A DNA stretch of 63,144 nt from Candidatus Abyssobacteria bacterium SURF_5. Its GTDB lineage: Bacteria; Abyssobacteria; SURF-5. Position 1 is the first letter of the stretch. Each line of letters begins with the position of its first letter. The stretch lies in assembly GCA_003598085.1 (NCBI GenBank), contig QZKU01000092.1, positions 1 to 63,144 on the forward strand, read 5' to 3'. Below, one piece after another: positions 4,039-20,178 of the stretch. A program made the translations under genes and the position numbers. A model generated the notes under the pieces. It saw only the letters and a program-made list of their open reading frames with translations. It had not been told where the DNA came from and made no database searches.

Positions 4039-4908
4039 GTGGCTACAATATTGGTAACCGGCGGTGCGGGCCGACTCGGCGCCAACCTCGCCTACGGGCT
4101 TCGTGAGAAGGGCCATCACGTGAGGGTGATGGATATCGAAGCGGCCGACTTCTCGCCATTCGAGGAACAAGACGATTTCGAGATCCTGAAGGGAGATATT
4201 CGCAATTTCAGCCTGGTGAAGAGAGGCGCCACCGGCTGCGCCTGCATCTATCACCTGGCCGCGCTTCTGCCGCCGGTGAGCGAGCGCGACAAAAAGGAAA
4301 CGATGTCCATCAATGTCGACGGCACGAGCATCCTGCTCAAAGCCAGCCAGGAAGCCGGTTCTATCCCCGTCTTCTTCTCCTCCTCAGTCTCGACGTACGG
4401 CGATACCTCAAGAGAAGCTCCGCCGGTTCGGGTCGATCATATACAGCAGGCGCTGAACATCTATCCCGAAAGCAAGATCCATGCTGAAAAACTCGTCATC
4501 AATTCCGGCCTCCCTTATACAATCCTTCGGATCGCGGGGATTGCGGTGCCCGCTTTCCTCGATCCACCCGACCCGTGGCCGTTCATGCCTGAGCAACGCG
4601 TCGAATTCATTGCGCTCGGAGACCTGGTCACCGCCCTCGTGAACCTGGTCGATAATCGGGCCGCTCAGGGCAAAACTTTCAATCTTGCCGGCGGCCCCTC
4701 CTGGCAAATGCTCGGAAAGGATTACGCCCGCCGGTATTGCCAAACACTCGAGATTTCATTCGAGTCGCAACATTTCTCCGAAAAACCGGGATGGCTCGAT
4801 TGGTACGATACCACCCAGTCTCAATCGATCCTGAAGTATCAGAATACCAGCTTCGACCAGTTCCATAAGATGCTGCGTTCGGCGATGGAGGCCGCACTCG
4901 AAGAATGA
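4039..4908 (+). CDS. NAD-dependent epimerase/dehydratase family protein
   Basis: 289 residues, an extended short-chain dehydrogenase. The N-terminal nucleotide-binding motif is TGGAGRLG, followed by DIRN (aspartate near the adenine site), SSSVSTYG and the catalytic YPESK motif. The GTG start is preceded by GTGAGGAGGAACCT, a strong SD, and lies 13 bases after the MoaD-like gene. The family acts on nucleotide sugars or other NAD(P)-dependent substrates. The substrate here is unknown, and the link to the AOR rests only on gene order. Confidence 0.85.
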   Translation: MATILVTGGAGRLGANLAYGLREKGHHVRVMDIEAADFSPFEEQDDFEILKGDIRNFSLVKRGATGCACIYHLAALLPPVSERDKKETMSINVDGTSILLKASQEAGSIPVFFSSSVSTYGDTSREAPPVRVDHIQQALNIYPESKIHAEKLVINSGLPYTILRIAGIAVPAFLDPPDPWPFMPEQRVEFIALGDLVTALVNLVDNRAAQGKTFNLAGGPSWQMLGKDYARRYCQTLEISFESQHFSEKPGWLDWYDTTQSQSILKYQNTSFDQFHKMLRSAMEAALEE

Positions 4909-4987
4909 AAGACTTTTCGGCCGAACGTGTGATAAAATATGAGAAACTCACAAATATGATCGAATCCGGTAAAGGGGGTTTTTAGCA

Positions 4988-5344
4988 GTGAGTGAACCTG
5001 AAGCAAAACAGTATCTGCTGGACGCTATCGAGCATTGCCGTAAGGCGATATCTGCCTTGACGGCCGCGGGAGATTCAAAGGGAGACGCGCTGAAGAAAAG
5101 CCTCGAGGAAACTGTCCAACTCCTCGAAGGCCTTCAGGAAAAAGTCTTCTTTAAAACGAAGAAGGCCGTCGCTCCGACGTTCCAGGTCTGTGAATCGAGC
5201 CAGGCAGTCGCCGAACGCGCGGAAGACATGGAGGACGCTGACGACGAAGCGATAACCGAATTGAAAGACTTGGTCGGACAACTGAAAGACAGCGTCGCCA
5301 CCCTGCAGGCGGCCTCGAAAACGCAGTCGGTTATCGTGACGTAA
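4988..5344 (+). CDS. Small acidic helical protein of unknown function
   Basis: 118 residues, starting at a GTG about ten bases after GTAAAGGGGG. The protein is rich in Glu, Asp, Lys, Ala and Leu, with long stretches likely to be helical or coiled-coil (about residues 5-50 and 75-110) and no membrane segment or signal. Codon use matches the neighbours. I do not recognise a family. It sits between the epimerase and the acyl-CoA dehydrogenase. Confidence 0.55.
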   Translation: MSEPEAKQYLLDAIEHCRKAISALTAAGDSKGDALKKSLEETVQLLEGLQEKVFFKTKKAVAPTFQVCESSQAVAERAEDMEDADDEAITELKDLVGQLKDSVATLQAASKTQSVIVT

Positions 5345-5465
5345 GGCGACGGGCGCGCCTCCAAAAACAACGGTGACCATGACTGCATCCATTCAGCGAT
5401 CCTTTCCACTGAGAAAGGTGAGAGCCGGTCGTCGAGAAATGCAGGTCTGGCTATACAGAATGTAG

Positions 5466-5486
5466 GGGCGACCCGGCGGGTCGCCC
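5466..5486. repeat. REP-like palindrome, 9-bp arms
   Basis: GGGCGACCC and GGGTCGCCC flank a three-base GGC loop. There is no T-tract on either side, so it is more like a dispersed REP element than a terminator. It lies in the gap between the small acidic protein and the acyl-CoA dehydrogenase gene. Confidence 0.7.
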
Positions 5487-5570
5487 GAACTTCTTTACGG
5501 AGCCGGTACGGTTTTCGCCAGCGCCCAAGATTATTCAGCACAACAAGTAGGCACTCCAGGAGAAGGCATA

Positions 5571-6728
5571 ATGGACTTCAACATTCCCGAAGAAATCGAA
5601 ATGCTCCGCCAAAGCTTGCGCAAATTCATCGAAAAAGAAGTGATCCCGATGGAGGAGAAAGCGCGCTTCGACCCCGACGACGGCGTTCCGCAAGAGCTTC
5701 TTAAGAAAGTTCGCAAGCGCTCCCACGAACTCGGCTTCTGGGCAATCGATCTGCCCGAGGAATACGGCGGCGGCGGCCTGAATATGCTCGGCACTGTCGT
5801 TCTCCGCGAGGAAGTCTCCAAATATTTCAGCTCGCTCACACAGGCCATCTTCGGCGGTCCCGAAGGCCCATCGAAAATCCTTCTCGCCGGTACGCCCGAC
5901 CAGATACAAAAGTATCTTGTCCCGGTCATTAAGGCCGAACAGACCTGCTGTTTCGCCTTGACCGAACCCAATGCCGGCTCCGACGCCGCCAGCATCGAGA
6001 CATCCGCCGTGCAGGACGGTGATCACTGGGTAATCAACGGACTGAAGCACTTTATCACCAACGGCCCGTATGCCGATTACGCCATCGTCTTTGCGGTCAC
6101 CGACAGGGAAAAACGGGCGCGCGGCGGAATCACCTGCTTTCTGGTCGATCGAGGAACTCCCGGCTTCTCCGTCGGAATGCATCAGAAAACAATGGGCGGC
6201 GGCGATAATCAGTCCGAATTGGTCTTCGAGGATTGCCGCGTGCCCAGGGAAAACGTGCTCGGCCAGGTCGGCATGGGCTTTGTCACCGCCATGACCTTCC
6301 TCGGCGGCGGCCGCCTCAGCATCGCGGCGGGGGCCGTCGGCATGACCGAAAAATTGTTGAAGGCTTCAACCGAATACGCCAAGCAACGCGTCCAGTTCGG
6401 AAAACCCATCGCGACAAAACAAGCCGTTCAATGGATGCTCGCCGATATTGCCACCGAGCTCTTCGCCGCTCGAAACATGGTCTACAACACCGCCTGGCGT
6501 ATCGACCAGGGCGAGATGGCCGTCAAGGAAATGGCCATGTGCAAGCTGTACGCGACCGAACTGGTGAATCGCGCCGCCGATGTCGCCGTACAAATACACG
6601 GCGGCATGGGTTACATGAAAGAACTTCCCATCGAACGTGTCTATCGCGGAGTTCGCGCCCTCAGAATCGTCGAGGGCACCTCGGAGATACAGCGCTACAT
6701 CATTGCCCGCACCCTCATGGCGGAGTGA
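5571..6728 (+). CDS. Acyl-CoA dehydrogenase
   Basis: 385 residues, full length for the family. These flavoenzymes introduce a double bond next to the CoA thioester and pass electrons to an electron-transfer flavoprotein. The FAD-binding segment CFALTEPNAGSD and the C-terminal EGTSEIQRYIIAR signature are intact; Glu368 of that signature is in the position of the MCAD-type catalytic base. The ATG follows CCAGGAGAAGGC. No electron-transfer flavoprotein genes lie nearby, and the acyl substrate cannot be read from the sequence. Confidence 0.93.
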   Translation: MDFNIPEEIEMLRQSLRKFIEKEVIPMEEKARFDPDDGVPQELLKKVRKRSHELGFWAIDLPEEYGGGGLNMLGTVVLREEVSKYFSSLTQAIFGGPEGPSKILLAGTPDQIQKYLVPVIKAEQTCCFALTEPNAGSDAASIETSAVQDGDHWVINGLKHFITNGPYADYAIVFAVTDREKRARGGITCFLVDRGTPGFSVGMHQKTMGGGDNQSELVFEDCRVPRENVLGQVGMGFVTAMTFLGGGRLSIAAGAVGMTEKLLKASTEYAKQRVQFGKPIATKQAVQWMLADIATELFAARNMVYNTAWRIDQGEMAVKEMAMCKLYATELVNRAADVAVQIHGGMGYMKELPIERVYRGVRALRIVEGTSEIQRYIIARTLMAE

Positions 6729-12818: not shown

Positions 12819-13979
12819 TCACAGGCGAAGCAGTTTCGCCAGGGGACCGCTGCCTACGGTTATGGCTCCATGCGGGCACATCTCCTGGCAGCAAAAGCAG
12901 CGGATGCAGCCTTTGAGATCAAACACCATTGTATCATTGCGGCGGGTTATCACTTTCGCCGGACAGTTTTCCATGCAGACGAGACAAACCTGACATCTGT
13001 TTTTATCAAGGACGGGCCGGGTCGTCAGCCAGTTCCGAAAGGGCGCGCGAAGCGGTTGCGGAAGAAAATTCATCAGCTCGCTCGTTTCCGGGAAAATGAA
13101 ATCGCCGACCCTGCTGTCATCAAGTTGTTCACCCGCAACAACGATCTTGTTCATGTTTGTCCGCCCGATTCCCATCTCTTCGGCTGCTAACAGCGTCGGC
13201 ATCCGCTCCTTCCGCAGCCCCACAACTTCACATATGAGCGTATCAAGCGCGACCGCATCTTCGGACGCCAAAATAAGTCCTACTTTCTTAGGGACTCCAT
13301 TCTGTGGACCATTACCGTGCATTGCAATCACGCCGTCCATGACGGTCAGGCTCGGTGAAACCTTGTGGTATAGGTCCACGAGCATACGAGCAAAATTCAG
13401 CCTGTCCGTTCCGGCAGCCAGGTGCCACTGCGATTTCCTGGTGCCGGGAATAACGCCAAACATGTTTTTCACGCCGAGCGTGAGCGTCATCTGCCCATGA
13501 GTCTTCAACTTTGGCAAATTGATGACCACGTCGGATTCGAGGACTGCACGATCTATTTTGAACTTCTTGAAGGTCGCCCCGGAACGATTGTCGACATCGA
13601 CCGGCCGATTAAAGTTGATGATATCCACTCGCTCGGCCCGCGCAACTTCGCCGATCCCACATTTGGCGGCAACTTTTTCTGCACTTCCCATCGCCGGACC
13701 GTCGCCTATCACCGGGATGCCGCCGGCCTTCTTTACCAGGCGGATAACGGCGCGGACAACTTCCGGATCCGTGGTGACGTATTTGTCCCGCGTGCGCGCA
13801 ATGAGCAGGTTCGCTTTCAAGAGCACCCGGTCGCCTTTTCTTACATAACGATCGATCCCACCGAGTTCATCAACGCAACTCCCGACAGACTTTGCAATCC
13901 TGTCCCCATCATAGTCCTTGCATCGGGATATGCCGACCCTCGAGATGGATTCGCTGTCGCTTTCCTTTATTCTTGCCAA
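12819..13979 (-). CDS. DUF362 protein with C-terminal two-cluster ferredoxin domain
   Basis: 386 residues from a TTG at 13979, chosen because GGAGG lies seven bases upstream; an ATG at 14012 would extend it by 11 residues without an SD. Residues about 15-300 form the DUF362 domain, with the conserved NLPKLKTHGQMTLTLG and KNMFG stretch. The last 70 residues hold two ferredoxin motifs, CQVCLVCMENCP and CIRCFCCQEMCP, so two 4Fe-4S clusters are expected. The role is probably redox or cluster-linked. There is no close partner gene; the upstream leader of about 270 bases is long. Confidence 0.87.
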   Translation of the reverse strand: MARIKESDSESISRVGISRCKDYDGDRIAKSVGSCVDELGGIDRYVRKGDRVLLKANLLIARTRDKYVTTDPEVVRAVIRLVKKAGGIPVIGDGPAMGSAEKVAAKCGIGEVARAERVDIINFNRPVDVDNRSGATFKKFKIDRAVLESDVVINLPKLKTHGQMTLTLGVKNMFGVIPGTRKSQWHLAAGTDRLNFARMLVDLYHKVSPSLTVMDGVIAMHGNGPQNGVPKKVGLILASEDAVALDTLICEVVGLRKERMPTLLAAEEMGIGRTNMNKIVVAGEQLDDSRVGDFIFPETSELMNFLPQPLRAPFRNWLTTRPVLDKNRCQVCLVCMENCPAKVITRRNDTMVFDLKGCIRCFCCQEMCPHGAITVGSGPLAKLLRL

Positions 13980-14251
13980 ACCGTATCCTCCGATTCTGCC
14001 AAATATGAACATTGCTGTGCGTCCTTCCGCCGCTGTGGCGCATCCTTTGCGTCAACGCCCGGCGAAATTCGGCTCCCCCGCCAGAGGGAACTCCTGAAAC
14101 ACTTCAGGAAAACCCGCACGCATACCAGGAAATACAGACTGATCGAACCGAAAAGAAGAATCTTCGACAACCACTGTAGGAAGACACTATCCATTGAGAC
14201 AGAATATGTTACGCAGATCCTCGGGAGTCGGAACCTTTTGTTTCAGTTCTC

Positions 14252-17161: not shown

Positions 17162-18013
17162 CTACGAAAGTTTCTCGACAACAGCCGGGGGACGATGCAG
17201 TTTTCGATGGGAGTATGCTATCGAGCCGGTCGGACAGTTATCCCGGCATTTGAGACAGCGAATACAGTTGAGTGAATTCGGCTCCTCATATACCTTCAGC
17301 CCCATCGGGCACTGCTTGTAACACTCGTCGCACTTCGTGCAGGTGACTGCGTTCCAGCTCATGCTGTACAGACTGAAGCGGTTGAACAGTGAATAAATAG
17401 CGCCGAGCGGGCATGTCGTGCGACAGAAAGCCCGGTGGCTGACGATCATCCACCCAACAAAAAAGACCAGAATCGACATCTTCAACATGTAGATGCCGCC
17501 TAACTGATCTCTGATGGCCGGCTCGAGCAGCGGAATCGGAATCCCGCCTTCCAGCGTGCCCGCCGGGCAGATCAGCTTGCAGAAATAGGGTTCGCCCACA
17601 CCGAATTCGTTCACCAGGAAAGCCGGCAGCAGAATAACCATTATCAGCAGGAATCCATATTTCGCGTAGTTCAGGAAGCGCGGAACGCCGAACTTCGGCG
17701 ATGGGATCTTATACAGGTATTCCTGCAGCAGCCCGAAAGGACAGATCCATCCGCACGCCATCCTGCCGGCCACTGCGCCCACCGCTCCCAGAATCCCGAT
17801 CGCATAAAAAGCAACCTGATACGCCATTCCCGCCGCAACGGCCTGCATCGCGCCGATTGGACACGAAAATACGGCAAGCGGGCAAGAGTAACAATTGAAG
17901 CTCGGGACGCAGAAATACTTTAGCGGGCCTCGGTAAATGAGCTGCCCCACAAAAAGCCCGTAAAAATAGGAATTCGTGATGAGGGTGCTTGCGATTTGGA
18001 AGGAGCGCCTCAT
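17162..18013 (-). CDS. NapH/NosR-like membrane polyferredoxin
   Basis: 283 residues, about five membrane segments with cysteine motifs between them. Membrane-flanking cysteine groups include [30 protein letters not shown] and CRTTCPLG, followed by a C-terminal pair of 4Fe-4S motifs, [12 protein letters not shown] and [12 protein letters not shown]. NapH- and CcoG-type proteins move electrons between quinones and Fe-S partners. The chosen ATG at 18013 overlaps the stop of the upstream 47-residue gene by ATGA; an ATG five codons earlier is also possible. Last gene of a four-gene operon. Confidence 0.85.
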
Positions 18014-18153
18014 CCTATACCTATGCATTCGAGGCAGATGGTGCGCGCCTTCTCAAAGACATCAACCGCCTCTCCCCGAAGTATGCCGAAAACCGTCAAG
18101 GCGAGAAAACACACCAGAAGAATCAGCCAGAAATACCTTCGTGCGATTTGCAT
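18010..18153 (-). CDS. CD1871A-like 47-residue membrane protein with C-terminal CXXC
   Basis: A small open frame of 48 codons including the stop. It begins [17 protein letters not shown], a single membrane segment, and ends [13 protein letters not shown]. This size and the C-terminal CLECIGIG ending match the CD1871A family of CXXC motif proteins as I know it. It lies 35 bases after the DUF6599-like gene and its stop overlaps the polyferredoxin ATG (ATGA), so translation is probably coupled. The CXXC near the membrane suggests redox or metal binding. I know of no established function. Confidence 0.75.
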
Positions 18154-18188
18154 ACCCTGTCCTGCGACTGCCGCCGTTCCCTGCCTCC

Positions 18189-19139
18189 TTATGGCAGGCG
18201 GTCAGAGACCTTCGCCAGCATTATCATCGCGCTATCGCTGCTCTCGGCGTCAGGGATGACCACCAGGTGCCATTCCCGCTTGCCTACTGCAATATATTTG
18301 CCCGGCATGACCGAAGCGGTAAACCGGTTGTCTACTTCGTCATCGCTTCCGTTGAAGTGGTTCAGAAAACGGGAATATGCCCGATCACACGATTCCCGGC
18401 TGAGATACTGCGCAATAATCAATGAGAGCCCCGGCTGCTGATAGCGCGCAATCGCTGCCGCTTCGTTTCCCTGCAGCCCGAATAAATCTTCCTCGGCTAT
18501 ATACACTTGATTATTAATGCCAAGCCTTCCCTTCACGAAGACCTCGCTCCTCGGAACCCGGTTTTCTTCTGGCAGCAGATCCATAAGAGGAGGCGCCACT
18601 GCGGTCGCAGAAATTTTTCCGGAAACCGCCCGGGCCAGATCGAGAAATTCTTCGGACGACACACGTGCCGATCCAAGCTGTCGCGCATGAACAAAAAAGG
18701 AATCCTGCCAAAAGAACAACCCACTCGAATGAACGGTGGCGTCAGTTCCGACTTCGATGCGAGAGAGTGAGGGATGCCGGCTGTAAGAGTAAATGCCAAA
18801 TGCCGCCGGAACGCCGTTCATACGATAGATTTCCAGCGATACGGCCTTTTCTCCTTTATTATATTGTTGCACGGCCAGGGCGCCAAATCCATATTCATAA
18901 TAAATGTCCGCCCCCCCATTAATATGATTGAATAACTCTTCACCTCTGAACACCGCCGGTTCGCCCGAAGGAGTCCATCCCGCTGATTCCTCGGCTGTCG
19001 GAATTGACGATAATACCGCCCGCGCTTCGCTTTTGGCGGAATCCGCATCCGGCGCGCGCGCACCGCGGTCGCAGGAGATCCCTCCAGCGGCCAGCATCAT
19101 GAAGAGAACAGCATAACGGGAAAAGGAGCGTTTATGCAA
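18189..19139 (-). CDS. DUF6599-like probable lipoprotein
   Basis: 316 residues from a TTG at 19139, preceded by AAGGA five bases upstream; an ATG at 19160 is the alternative. The start overlaps the end of the upstream DUF362 gene by 8 bases. The N-terminus has basic residues, a hydrophobic core and a possible lipobox ending GISC. A characteristic stretch [16 protein letters not shown] fits the DUF6599 family as I recall it. It is probably exported. Position between a Tat-exported DUF362 and membrane Fe-S genes suggests a shared envelope redox task. Confidence 0.72.
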
Positions 19140-20178
19140 CGATTTCCTTAATTGCAACATTGCGCAAATCTCTTATTCCGAGCCCCAGTCGCTCGGCCGC
19201 ATCCAGTTGATTCTCGATCATGTCGGAGGAATAACTGTCATCATGTTCCTCCATCAGTTTGGAACAGTACACTTCGGCCGCAAGCATATCACCGCACAAG
19301 ATGATCCTGTTGACCCCTTCTTTGATCTCAGCTCTGCCGGACAAAGTTGGACCGCTCCGAATCAGCAGCGTGCGGCCGTCGACGATGTTCAATTCCGGGC
19401 GAACGGCGTCTGCAAATTCCGCCAGCGCTCGATCAAAATACTGCTCGCCGCCCTCGGCTTTCAGCTTGTTGTGGGCGACAAAACGCAACGGCCCATACAC
19501 CGAACCGAAATGATTTTTCAAGGCGCAAGTGAATCTGGAGGCGTCATGACGCTTGATCATCGGAAGATTGATTACAACATCCGCCTCATGCAGGGTTCGC
19601 ACAACCCCTATCTTCGGATGCGCCAACCATTGCGGCTTCTGAACAAACACATGCGCCAGACGGTCTCCAAAATCGACGGCATCCAGCGCTATCCCGGCTT
19701 CCTTCAATCGTGCGGGAAAACCGAGAGCATCGAATTTGCCCGCCTTGCTGACGCCGCTACTGTTGGCGTCGCACGCCGTAAGGGACAAAGCGCCCTCTCG
19801 TCGCGTCATATCTCCTACTGCCAGCAGCAAATCCACGTCCGTTGTGACCGGCGGCGGCTGCGAGGCAACAACGTTCGGTTTGAGGACCACTTTCTTGCCG
19901 GAAACCAGCTTTCGTAAACCTCCCAGAGCTTCGATCCCGGCCTGCAGCATCCTCTGAAGATCGCCGCCCTCCACCACAATGAGCAACGGCTTATCGCCTT
20001 GCATAAACAGGTTGCCTGCGCCTGCGCGCGGTACCGCGGTCGCCGACGAACAGGCGCTCAGCGGGCCCGCAAGCGCGATCCCGGCTGTACCGGCGGTCGC
20101 AGCCCGAATAAATTCCCGCCGCGTCCACTCTATACTCGAGAAGCCGTCACAATAGCTGCCAGCTTTTTTCGTCGCCAT
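19132..20178 (-). CDS. Tat-exported DUF362 domain protein
   Basis: 348 residues. Residues 1-45 form a twin-arginine signal with TRREFIRAA, a hydrophobic stretch and LSAC, which could also be a lipobox, so the protein is likely exported in folded form, possibly lipid-anchored. The rest is a DUF362 domain with VVLKPNV and VVINLPMIKRHDASRFTC. Unlike the other two DUF362 proteins here it has no ferredoxin cysteines. ATG preceded by GAGAGGGAAGGT. First gene of the operon with the DUF6599-like, CXXC and polyferredoxin genes. Confidence 0.85.
   Translation of the reverse strand: MATKKAGSYCDGFSSIEWTRREFIRAATAGTAGIALAGPLSACSSATAVPRAGAGNLFMQGDKPLLIVVEGGDLQRMLQAGIEALGGLRKLVSGKKVVLKPNVVASQPPPVTTDVDLLLAVGDMTRREGALSLTACDANSSGVSKAGKFDALGFPARLKEAGIALDAVDFGDRLAHVFVQKPQWLAHPKIGVVRTLHEADVVINLPMIKRHDASRFTCALKNHFGSVYGPLRFVAHNKLKAEGGEQYFDRALAEFADAVRPELNIVDGRTLLIRSGPTLSGRAEIKEGVNRIILCGDMLAAEVYCSKLMEEHDDSYSSDMIENQLDAAERLGLGIRDLRNVAIKEIVA

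Follow-up and report, generated by a model that had tools for sequence, protein, structure and literature searches.

The window (63,144 nucleotides of a Candidatus Abyssobacteria contig, the whole stretch of DNA that was analysed; genome size 5.1 Mb) contains a four-gene set in which two recurrent modules are joined, one consisting of a CD1871A-family membrane peptide and a short polyferredoxin, and the other of a DUF6599 protein and a Tat-exported DUF362 protein. CD1871A is apparently a selenoprotein family, since a key cysteine of the peptide is encoded as selenocysteine in many relatives. We propose that the peptide and the polyferredoxin form a two-protein transmembrane electron conduit, a reading that we consider likely. 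The evidence is computational and comprises gene linkage, a UGA/SECIS signature, cysteine conservation, topology signals and a LarA-like fold.

The genes occupy window positions 17162-20178, and all four open reading frames are present on the minus strand (Table 1). A sequence-only reading of this DNA had proposed four tightly spaced minus-strand genes, and this arrangement was borne out by the reading frames, the family matches, a 35-base gap between the DUF6599 and peptide genes, and a 4-base ATGA overlap between the peptide stop and the conserved polyferredoxin start at 18013. The longest polyferredoxin frame spans 17162-18028 (288 aa). The 8-base overlap that had been given for the DUF362 and DUF6599 genes holds when DUF6599 starts at the TTG at 19139; the upstream ATG gives an overlap of 29 bases. 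The DUF362 protein has a twin-arginine start (TRREFIRAA). The peptide scored 47.1 bits against NCBIfam NF040920 (CD1871A; cut-off 32, E 1.5e-12), placing it within the family. The polyferredoxin had been called NapH-like; the likeness stands (best full-length similarity NapH/MauN, TIGR02163, 60.7 bits), but the score lies well below the cut-off of 213 bits, and the protein is not NapH proper. The window's genome has 16 DUF362 matches, three of them inside the window, among these one at 192-1598 and another at 12819-14012 that carries a fused 2[4Fe-4S] ferredoxin domain.

Table 1. Coordinates of the four genes and of their cysteine motifs in the window.
Feature	Position	Strand	Basis
DUF362 protein, Tat-exported, predicted LarA-like fold, 348 aa	19132-20178	-	PF04015 E 6.8e-33, RR-containing N-terminus
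DUF6599 lipoprotein-like protein, 323 aa	18189-19160	-	PF20244 E 1.7e-36, orthologues in both sister genomes
CD1871A-family single-pass membrane peptide, 47 aa, C-terminal CLECIGIG	18010-18153	-	NF040920 47.1 bits, charge pattern
CLEC motif of the peptide	18025-18036	-	Cys codons 18034-18036 (first) and 18025-18027 (second)
Membrane polyferredoxin, 283 aa from the conserved start	17162-18013	-	Fer4_5 and two Fer4; relatives in 80 loci
Polyferredoxin Cys 46, 49, 56, predicted outer face	17861-17893	-	invariant in 68/68, loops poor in K/R
Polyferredoxin Cys154, predicted outer face	17567-17569	-	goes with Cys 46/49/56
Polyferredoxin Cys 202, 206, predicted cytoplasmic cluster site	17411-17425	-	invariant in 68/68, K/R-rich loops
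Polyferredoxin Cys 92, 96, predicted cytoplasmic cluster site	17741-17755	-	goes with Cys 202/206
Polyferredoxin C-terminal 2[4Fe-4S] ferredoxin motifs, predicted cytoplasmic	17234-17341	-	Fer4 matches, Cys pattern

We scanned about 85,000 species genomes with a polyferredoxin alignment and obtained 80 loci, in the selection of which the peptide played no part. A peptide gene lay immediately 5' of the short polyferredoxin in 79 of these loci, from many phyla, and the encoded peptides were mostly 40-56 aa long, carried a CxxC and ended a few residues past it. The small frame, which the sequence-only reading had taken for a gene, is therefore a genuine one. Of 142 loci with a peptide (a pool that includes the first 80), 122 had the start of a polyferredoxin domain no more than 400 nt away; 32 of 46 peptide relatives matched NF040920 at E<=0.1.

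In the three genomes sampled from the phylum (G000-G002, G000 being the window's own), the peptide and polyferredoxin genes were preceded by DUF6599 and DUF362 in the same order, and among the loci examined the exact four-gene set was seen only there. Genes further upstream were also syntenic (an abhydrolase and a 197-aa membrane protein in both sister genomes, a metalloprotease in one), so conservation within the phylum is by itself weak evidence for a functional set. DUF6599 occurred in only two of the 80 polyferredoxin loci, both from the same phylum. It was common in Desulfobacterota (42 of 148 genomes), where DUF362 adjoined it in 8 of 30 loci, and five of eight enlarged loci showed DUF6599 upstream, DUF362, and then a long polyferredoxin of 577-644 aa, with no peptide. 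The long polyferredoxin of L254, the only one scanned in detail, has a NapH-like part followed by a NapG-like part and resembles a fused NapH-NapG. Since the peptide/polyferredoxin pair and the DUF6599/DUF362/polyferredoxin grouping each recur outside the phylum, the window joins two recurrent modules. The earlier suggestion that the four products work together thus survives in part: the families do travel together, but as two modules rather than one unit, and the neighbourhood search that had been proposed as a check found the modules in other phyla and the complete set in the phylum's three genomes alone. In six Desulfobacterota loci (L224, L227, L230, L231, L234 and L236), DUF6599 stood beside an aldo/keto-reductase-like protein instead of DUF362, with a Tat-like start wherever the start was present in the sequence, and the DUF6599 gene of L251 contained one in-frame TGA, marking either selenocysteine or a broken gene.

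The window peptide is a Cys form, with TGC at both CXXC codons. A second copy in the sister genome G001, located beside another polyferredoxin and a TlpA-like gene, has TGA as its first CXXC codon, and among the 80 polyferredoxin loci TGA replaced the first Cys codon in 11 and the second in 2. The NF040920 profile missed UGA-type relatives in one phylum, and its cut-off was mostly not reached by the UXXC and CXXU forms tested; a wider peptide alignment was used instead. A search of about 540 further genomes yielded 57 peptide matches with one internal stop, a few from loci already known, and this stop was TGA every time, with UAA or UAG in none of the 57. From the new matches 52 UGA loci and 8 Cys-type paralogues were retrieved, and all 52 kept the [CU]xx[CU]xG motif, with homology continuing past the UGA. 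The resulting data set comprised 67 UGA entries and 76 Cys entries from several phyla; a few entries represent one place twice (L015/L046, L013/L025 and L014/L024), and L101 has two copies. In all 67, the in-frame UGA fell exactly at the CXXC, at the first position in 65 (UxxC) and at the second in two (CxxU; L062 and L091, reading CLSU). Long open frames around the peptide were considered as natural fusions and judged to be a spurious reading. Eight UGA-type peptide genes (L180-L183, L201, L208, L210 and L215) had no polyferredoxin in the stretch examined; an in-frame UGA inside the polyferredoxin gene, considered where no polyferredoxin match was found, was unsupported on checking.

Bacterial SECIS elements lie 16-37 nt after the UGA (PMC13188914). 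The UGA-type peptide genes showed a hairpin within this range, about 18 nt past the UGA, with an apical loop that was mostly GGGU, GGU or GUG; where the UGA replaces the second Cys codon, the hairpin lies about 21 nt after it, and in L062 and L091 it is displaced to match. A fixed-position hairpin score of at least 15 was reached by 58 of 67 UGA genes compared with 1 of 76 Cys genes (Mann-Whitney p 3e-19, a value that overstates independence, the entries being related). The five inner pairs were formed in 100% of 56 unique UGA sequences (32 and 24, in register) compared with 45-55% in Cys controls, with compensatory exchanges (GC/AT and GC/TA/CG), and none of 2000 column shuffles equalled this pairing. 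Seven UGA entries of different layout were excluded from that count, so the 100% applies to layout-fitting entries and 58/67 is the unselected figure. The pairing is not explained by coding constraint, because the 3' arm lies mostly past the stop codon. No Rfam family matched the hairpin. The signal came from the fixed-distance apical hairpin test and was not seen when one UGA region was folded generically.

The machinery for selenocysteine was present in the genomes concerned. Of 13 UGA genomes, 12 had a SelB match above cut-off and the remaining one a SelB fragment; among 37 Cys genomes, SelB passed in 22. tRNA-Sec was found in all three genomes of the phylum. In a polyferredoxin tree of 114 entries, the Cys/Sec label changed seven times, and at least five of the changes were forced by well-supported branches. 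Four Eisenbacteria-type loci (L058, at 4494-5888, and L075, L088 and L092) carry, directly 5' of the UGA-type peptide, an UshA-like gene with its own in-frame UGA (NPCGU), and on sequence grounds each is a putative two-selenoprotein operon. The UshA-like (seleno)protein, NF041198, is a known selenoprotein, large and unrelated to the peptide, a neighbour and not a homologue; this second nearby UGA supports independently the use of selenocysteine in these operons. The UGA-type genes all come from genome assemblies, many of them MAGs, and a stop near the gene end would cost only about eight residues; they might therefore be truncated or sequencing-error forms in which UGA is a real stop. With 67 entries from several phyla, a stop that is always UGA, conserved sequence beyond it, a SECIS-like hairpin with compensatory changes that is absent from the Cys genes, and the Sec machinery in place, this explanation is very improbable, and the UGA is almost certainly read as selenocysteine.

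CD1871A/NF040920 is unnamed in the May 2026 catalogue of 119 prokaryotic selenoprotein families. In NCBIfam release 20 the sole meaningful match of the UGA peptides was NF040920, the family of the window peptide itself, which is named as a CXXC protein without function and not as a (seleno)protein. Our literature search found no paper on CD1871A or DUF6599. CD1871A thus appears to be new as a selenoprotein family.

In 68 of 68 aligned polyferredoxins, Cys 46, 49, 56, 92, 96, 154, 202 and 206 and most of the ferredoxin cysteines were invariant. Judged by mean K/R content, the N-terminus (3.4), the Cys92/96 loop (5.3) and the Cys202/206 segment (4.1) are predicted inside, and the loops bearing Cys46/49/56 (2.1) and Cys154 (2.3) outside. 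The mean net charge of the peptide was +2.1 before the helix and -0.65 after it, with 69 of 78 peptides having that sense, and the CXXC is therefore placed outside. The AlphaFold model of the polyferredoxin was confident (pLDDT 87, pTM 0.83); Foldseek found no full-length solved relative for it and a weak PDB similarity for the ferredoxin domain only, and PDB profile searches with the peptide and DUF362 alignments gave no useful full-length relative, only ferredoxin motifs. Cys150 of the polyferredoxin (17579-17581) was replaced by Ser in 34 of 41 Sec-type loci compared with 12 of 73 Cys-type loci, an association that could reflect either coupling or shared descent, the two being inseparable on the present loci. 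Longer polyferredoxins in L205 and L209, located beside UGA-type peptides, lack Cys49 of the outer motif (NCYGGPLA and HCYAGPLA) and carry an insert.

In the proposed conduit, the four-helix polyferredoxin would accept low-potential electrons at its 2[4Fe-4S] domain in the cytoplasm and relay them from a putative cluster at the cytoplasmic-side cysteines (92, 96, 202 and 206) to another at the outer-face cysteines (46, 49, 56 and 154). The outer-face cluster, in presumed contact with the peptide, would then reduce the CXXC disulfide on its outward-facing tail, a bond that in many relatives would be a selenenylsulfide, one cysteine being selenocysteine. The resulting dithiol or selenol would in turn reduce exported partners, which in the window may be the DUF6599 lipoprotein and perhaps the Tat-exported LarA-fold DUF362 protein, and elsewhere would often be TlpA-like thioredoxins. 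Delivery of polyferredoxin electrons to exported partners is the best-supported reading.

The neighbours of the core pair bear on these partners. Other exported proteins, often thioredoxin-like, adjoin the pair elsewhere: of the first 83 loci examined, 23 contained thioredoxin-like genes, some without a CXXC and some not directly adjoining. Such genes also stood upstream in several UGA loci, and the neighbours scanned included AhpC-TSA/TlpA-like and thioredoxin proteins, one DsbD and one Omp28-like protein. Pyridine-nucleotide oxidoreductases adjoin further loci. A clade of six UGA loci (L100, L101, L166, L170, L191 and L192) apparently lies within magnetosome gene clusters, with profile confirmation in L100 only, where a MamM/MamB-like transporter and a MamE-like protease were detected below equivalog cut-offs. 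Against a conduit stand the adjacency of thioredoxin-like genes in only part of the loci, the unrelated neighbours in many, and at least eight UGA-type loci without a polyferredoxin in the stretch examined.

The near-obligate pairing would also suit a structural or cofactor-ligand role of the CXXC/UXXC, in which the peptide either ligates the outer-face Fe-S cluster as a subunit of the polyferredoxin or helps, as a chaperone, to insert a cluster or metal. Consistent with such a role are the tiny size of the peptide, its lack of a thioredoxin fold, its free C-terminus of near-fixed length past the motif, and the loss of outer-motif Cys49 from some WOR-3-like polyferredoxins. However, a redox-active pair accounts better for the replacement of either cysteine by selenocysteine (65 UxxC and 2 CxxU) and for how often thioredoxin-like genes lie nearby, and selenocysteine is rare as an Fe-S ligand; we regard the ligand or chaperone role as unlikely. 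Somewhat less probable still is that the polyferredoxin is a NapH-type quinol dehydrogenase passing electrons from quinol through Fe-S clusters to exported enzymes, with the peptide as an accessory. The NapH/MauN similarity and the NapH-NapG-like longer relative beside DUF362 point in that direction, but the NapH cut-off is missed, four further invariant cysteines are predicted at the outer face, and many loci have thiol-redox rather than cytochrome neighbours.

As for the target of the conduit in the window, DUF362 is a tentative candidate. DUF6599-DUF362-long-polyferredoxin loci occur without the peptide, and DUF362 may therefore not need it. The DUF362 AlphaFold model (pLDDT 81.9) had LarA-family entries at all of Foldseek PDB ranks 1-19 (E 6.5e-8 to 8.5e-5, TM about 0.4-0.5), indicating a LarA-like fold. 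DUF362 and DUF2088 (LarA) belong to one Pfam clan, CL0471 (PMC11770544). A weak profile alignment (hhalign E 0.0085, probability 4.7) matched Lys221 to the cofactor Lys of LarA and His211 to a catalytic His. Lys221 and His236 are invariant in DUF362 and 15 residues apart, compared with 16 for Lys184 and the Ni ligand His200 in LarA, the alignment being gapped there. LarC was present in all three genomes of the phylum. The DUF362 protein shares its modelled fold with the LarA superfamily but differs from it by the Tat signal, and a nickel-pincer cofactor is putative; Tat export would be in keeping with cytoplasmic loading of such a cofactor.

Among known systems, NapH/MauN (TIGR02163) and NapGH share with the polyferredoxin a membrane protein with Fer4_5 cysteine motifs and a C-terminal 2[4Fe-4S] domain, from which it is set apart by its low score, its additional outer-face cysteines and its CXXC-peptide partner. 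Like the DsbD/CcdA thiol reductases, the conduit would move reducing power out to exported thioredoxin-like proteins, but where they use a thiol-based membrane domain, its predicted carriers are Fe-S clusters together with a 47-aa peptide, and Pfam gave no DsbD_TM match in either protein. In ferredoxin:thioredoxin reductase, electrons from an Fe-S cluster likewise reduce a disulfide; that enzyme is soluble and cytoplasmic, unlike the membrane conduit, and is likened to it by function. The combined claim, that the pair is a distinct class of transmembrane reductase working straight from Fe-S to an outward dithiol or selenol, independently of DsbD and thioredoxin, and that CD1871A is a new selenoprotein family spanning several phyla and magnetosome clusters, is one we hold to be quite possible, if somewhat short of likely.

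The selenocysteine forms mark the likely active residue, make the peptide traceable with 75Se and would add a family to the selenoprotein catalogue, and annotation probably truncates or overlooks UGA-type peptide genes. The module could also have a bearing on the control of iron redox state in the vesicle of the magnetosome-linked clade. Anaerobes require a supply of reducing power beyond the inner membrane; to our knowledge, thiol-based DsbD/CcdA proteins and quinol-fed cytochromes are the routes described for it. If the proposal is true, these would be joined by a two-gene conduit from Fe-S to thiol that employs a 47-residue partner and is spread over many poorly known phyla and, in our sample, one archaeon.
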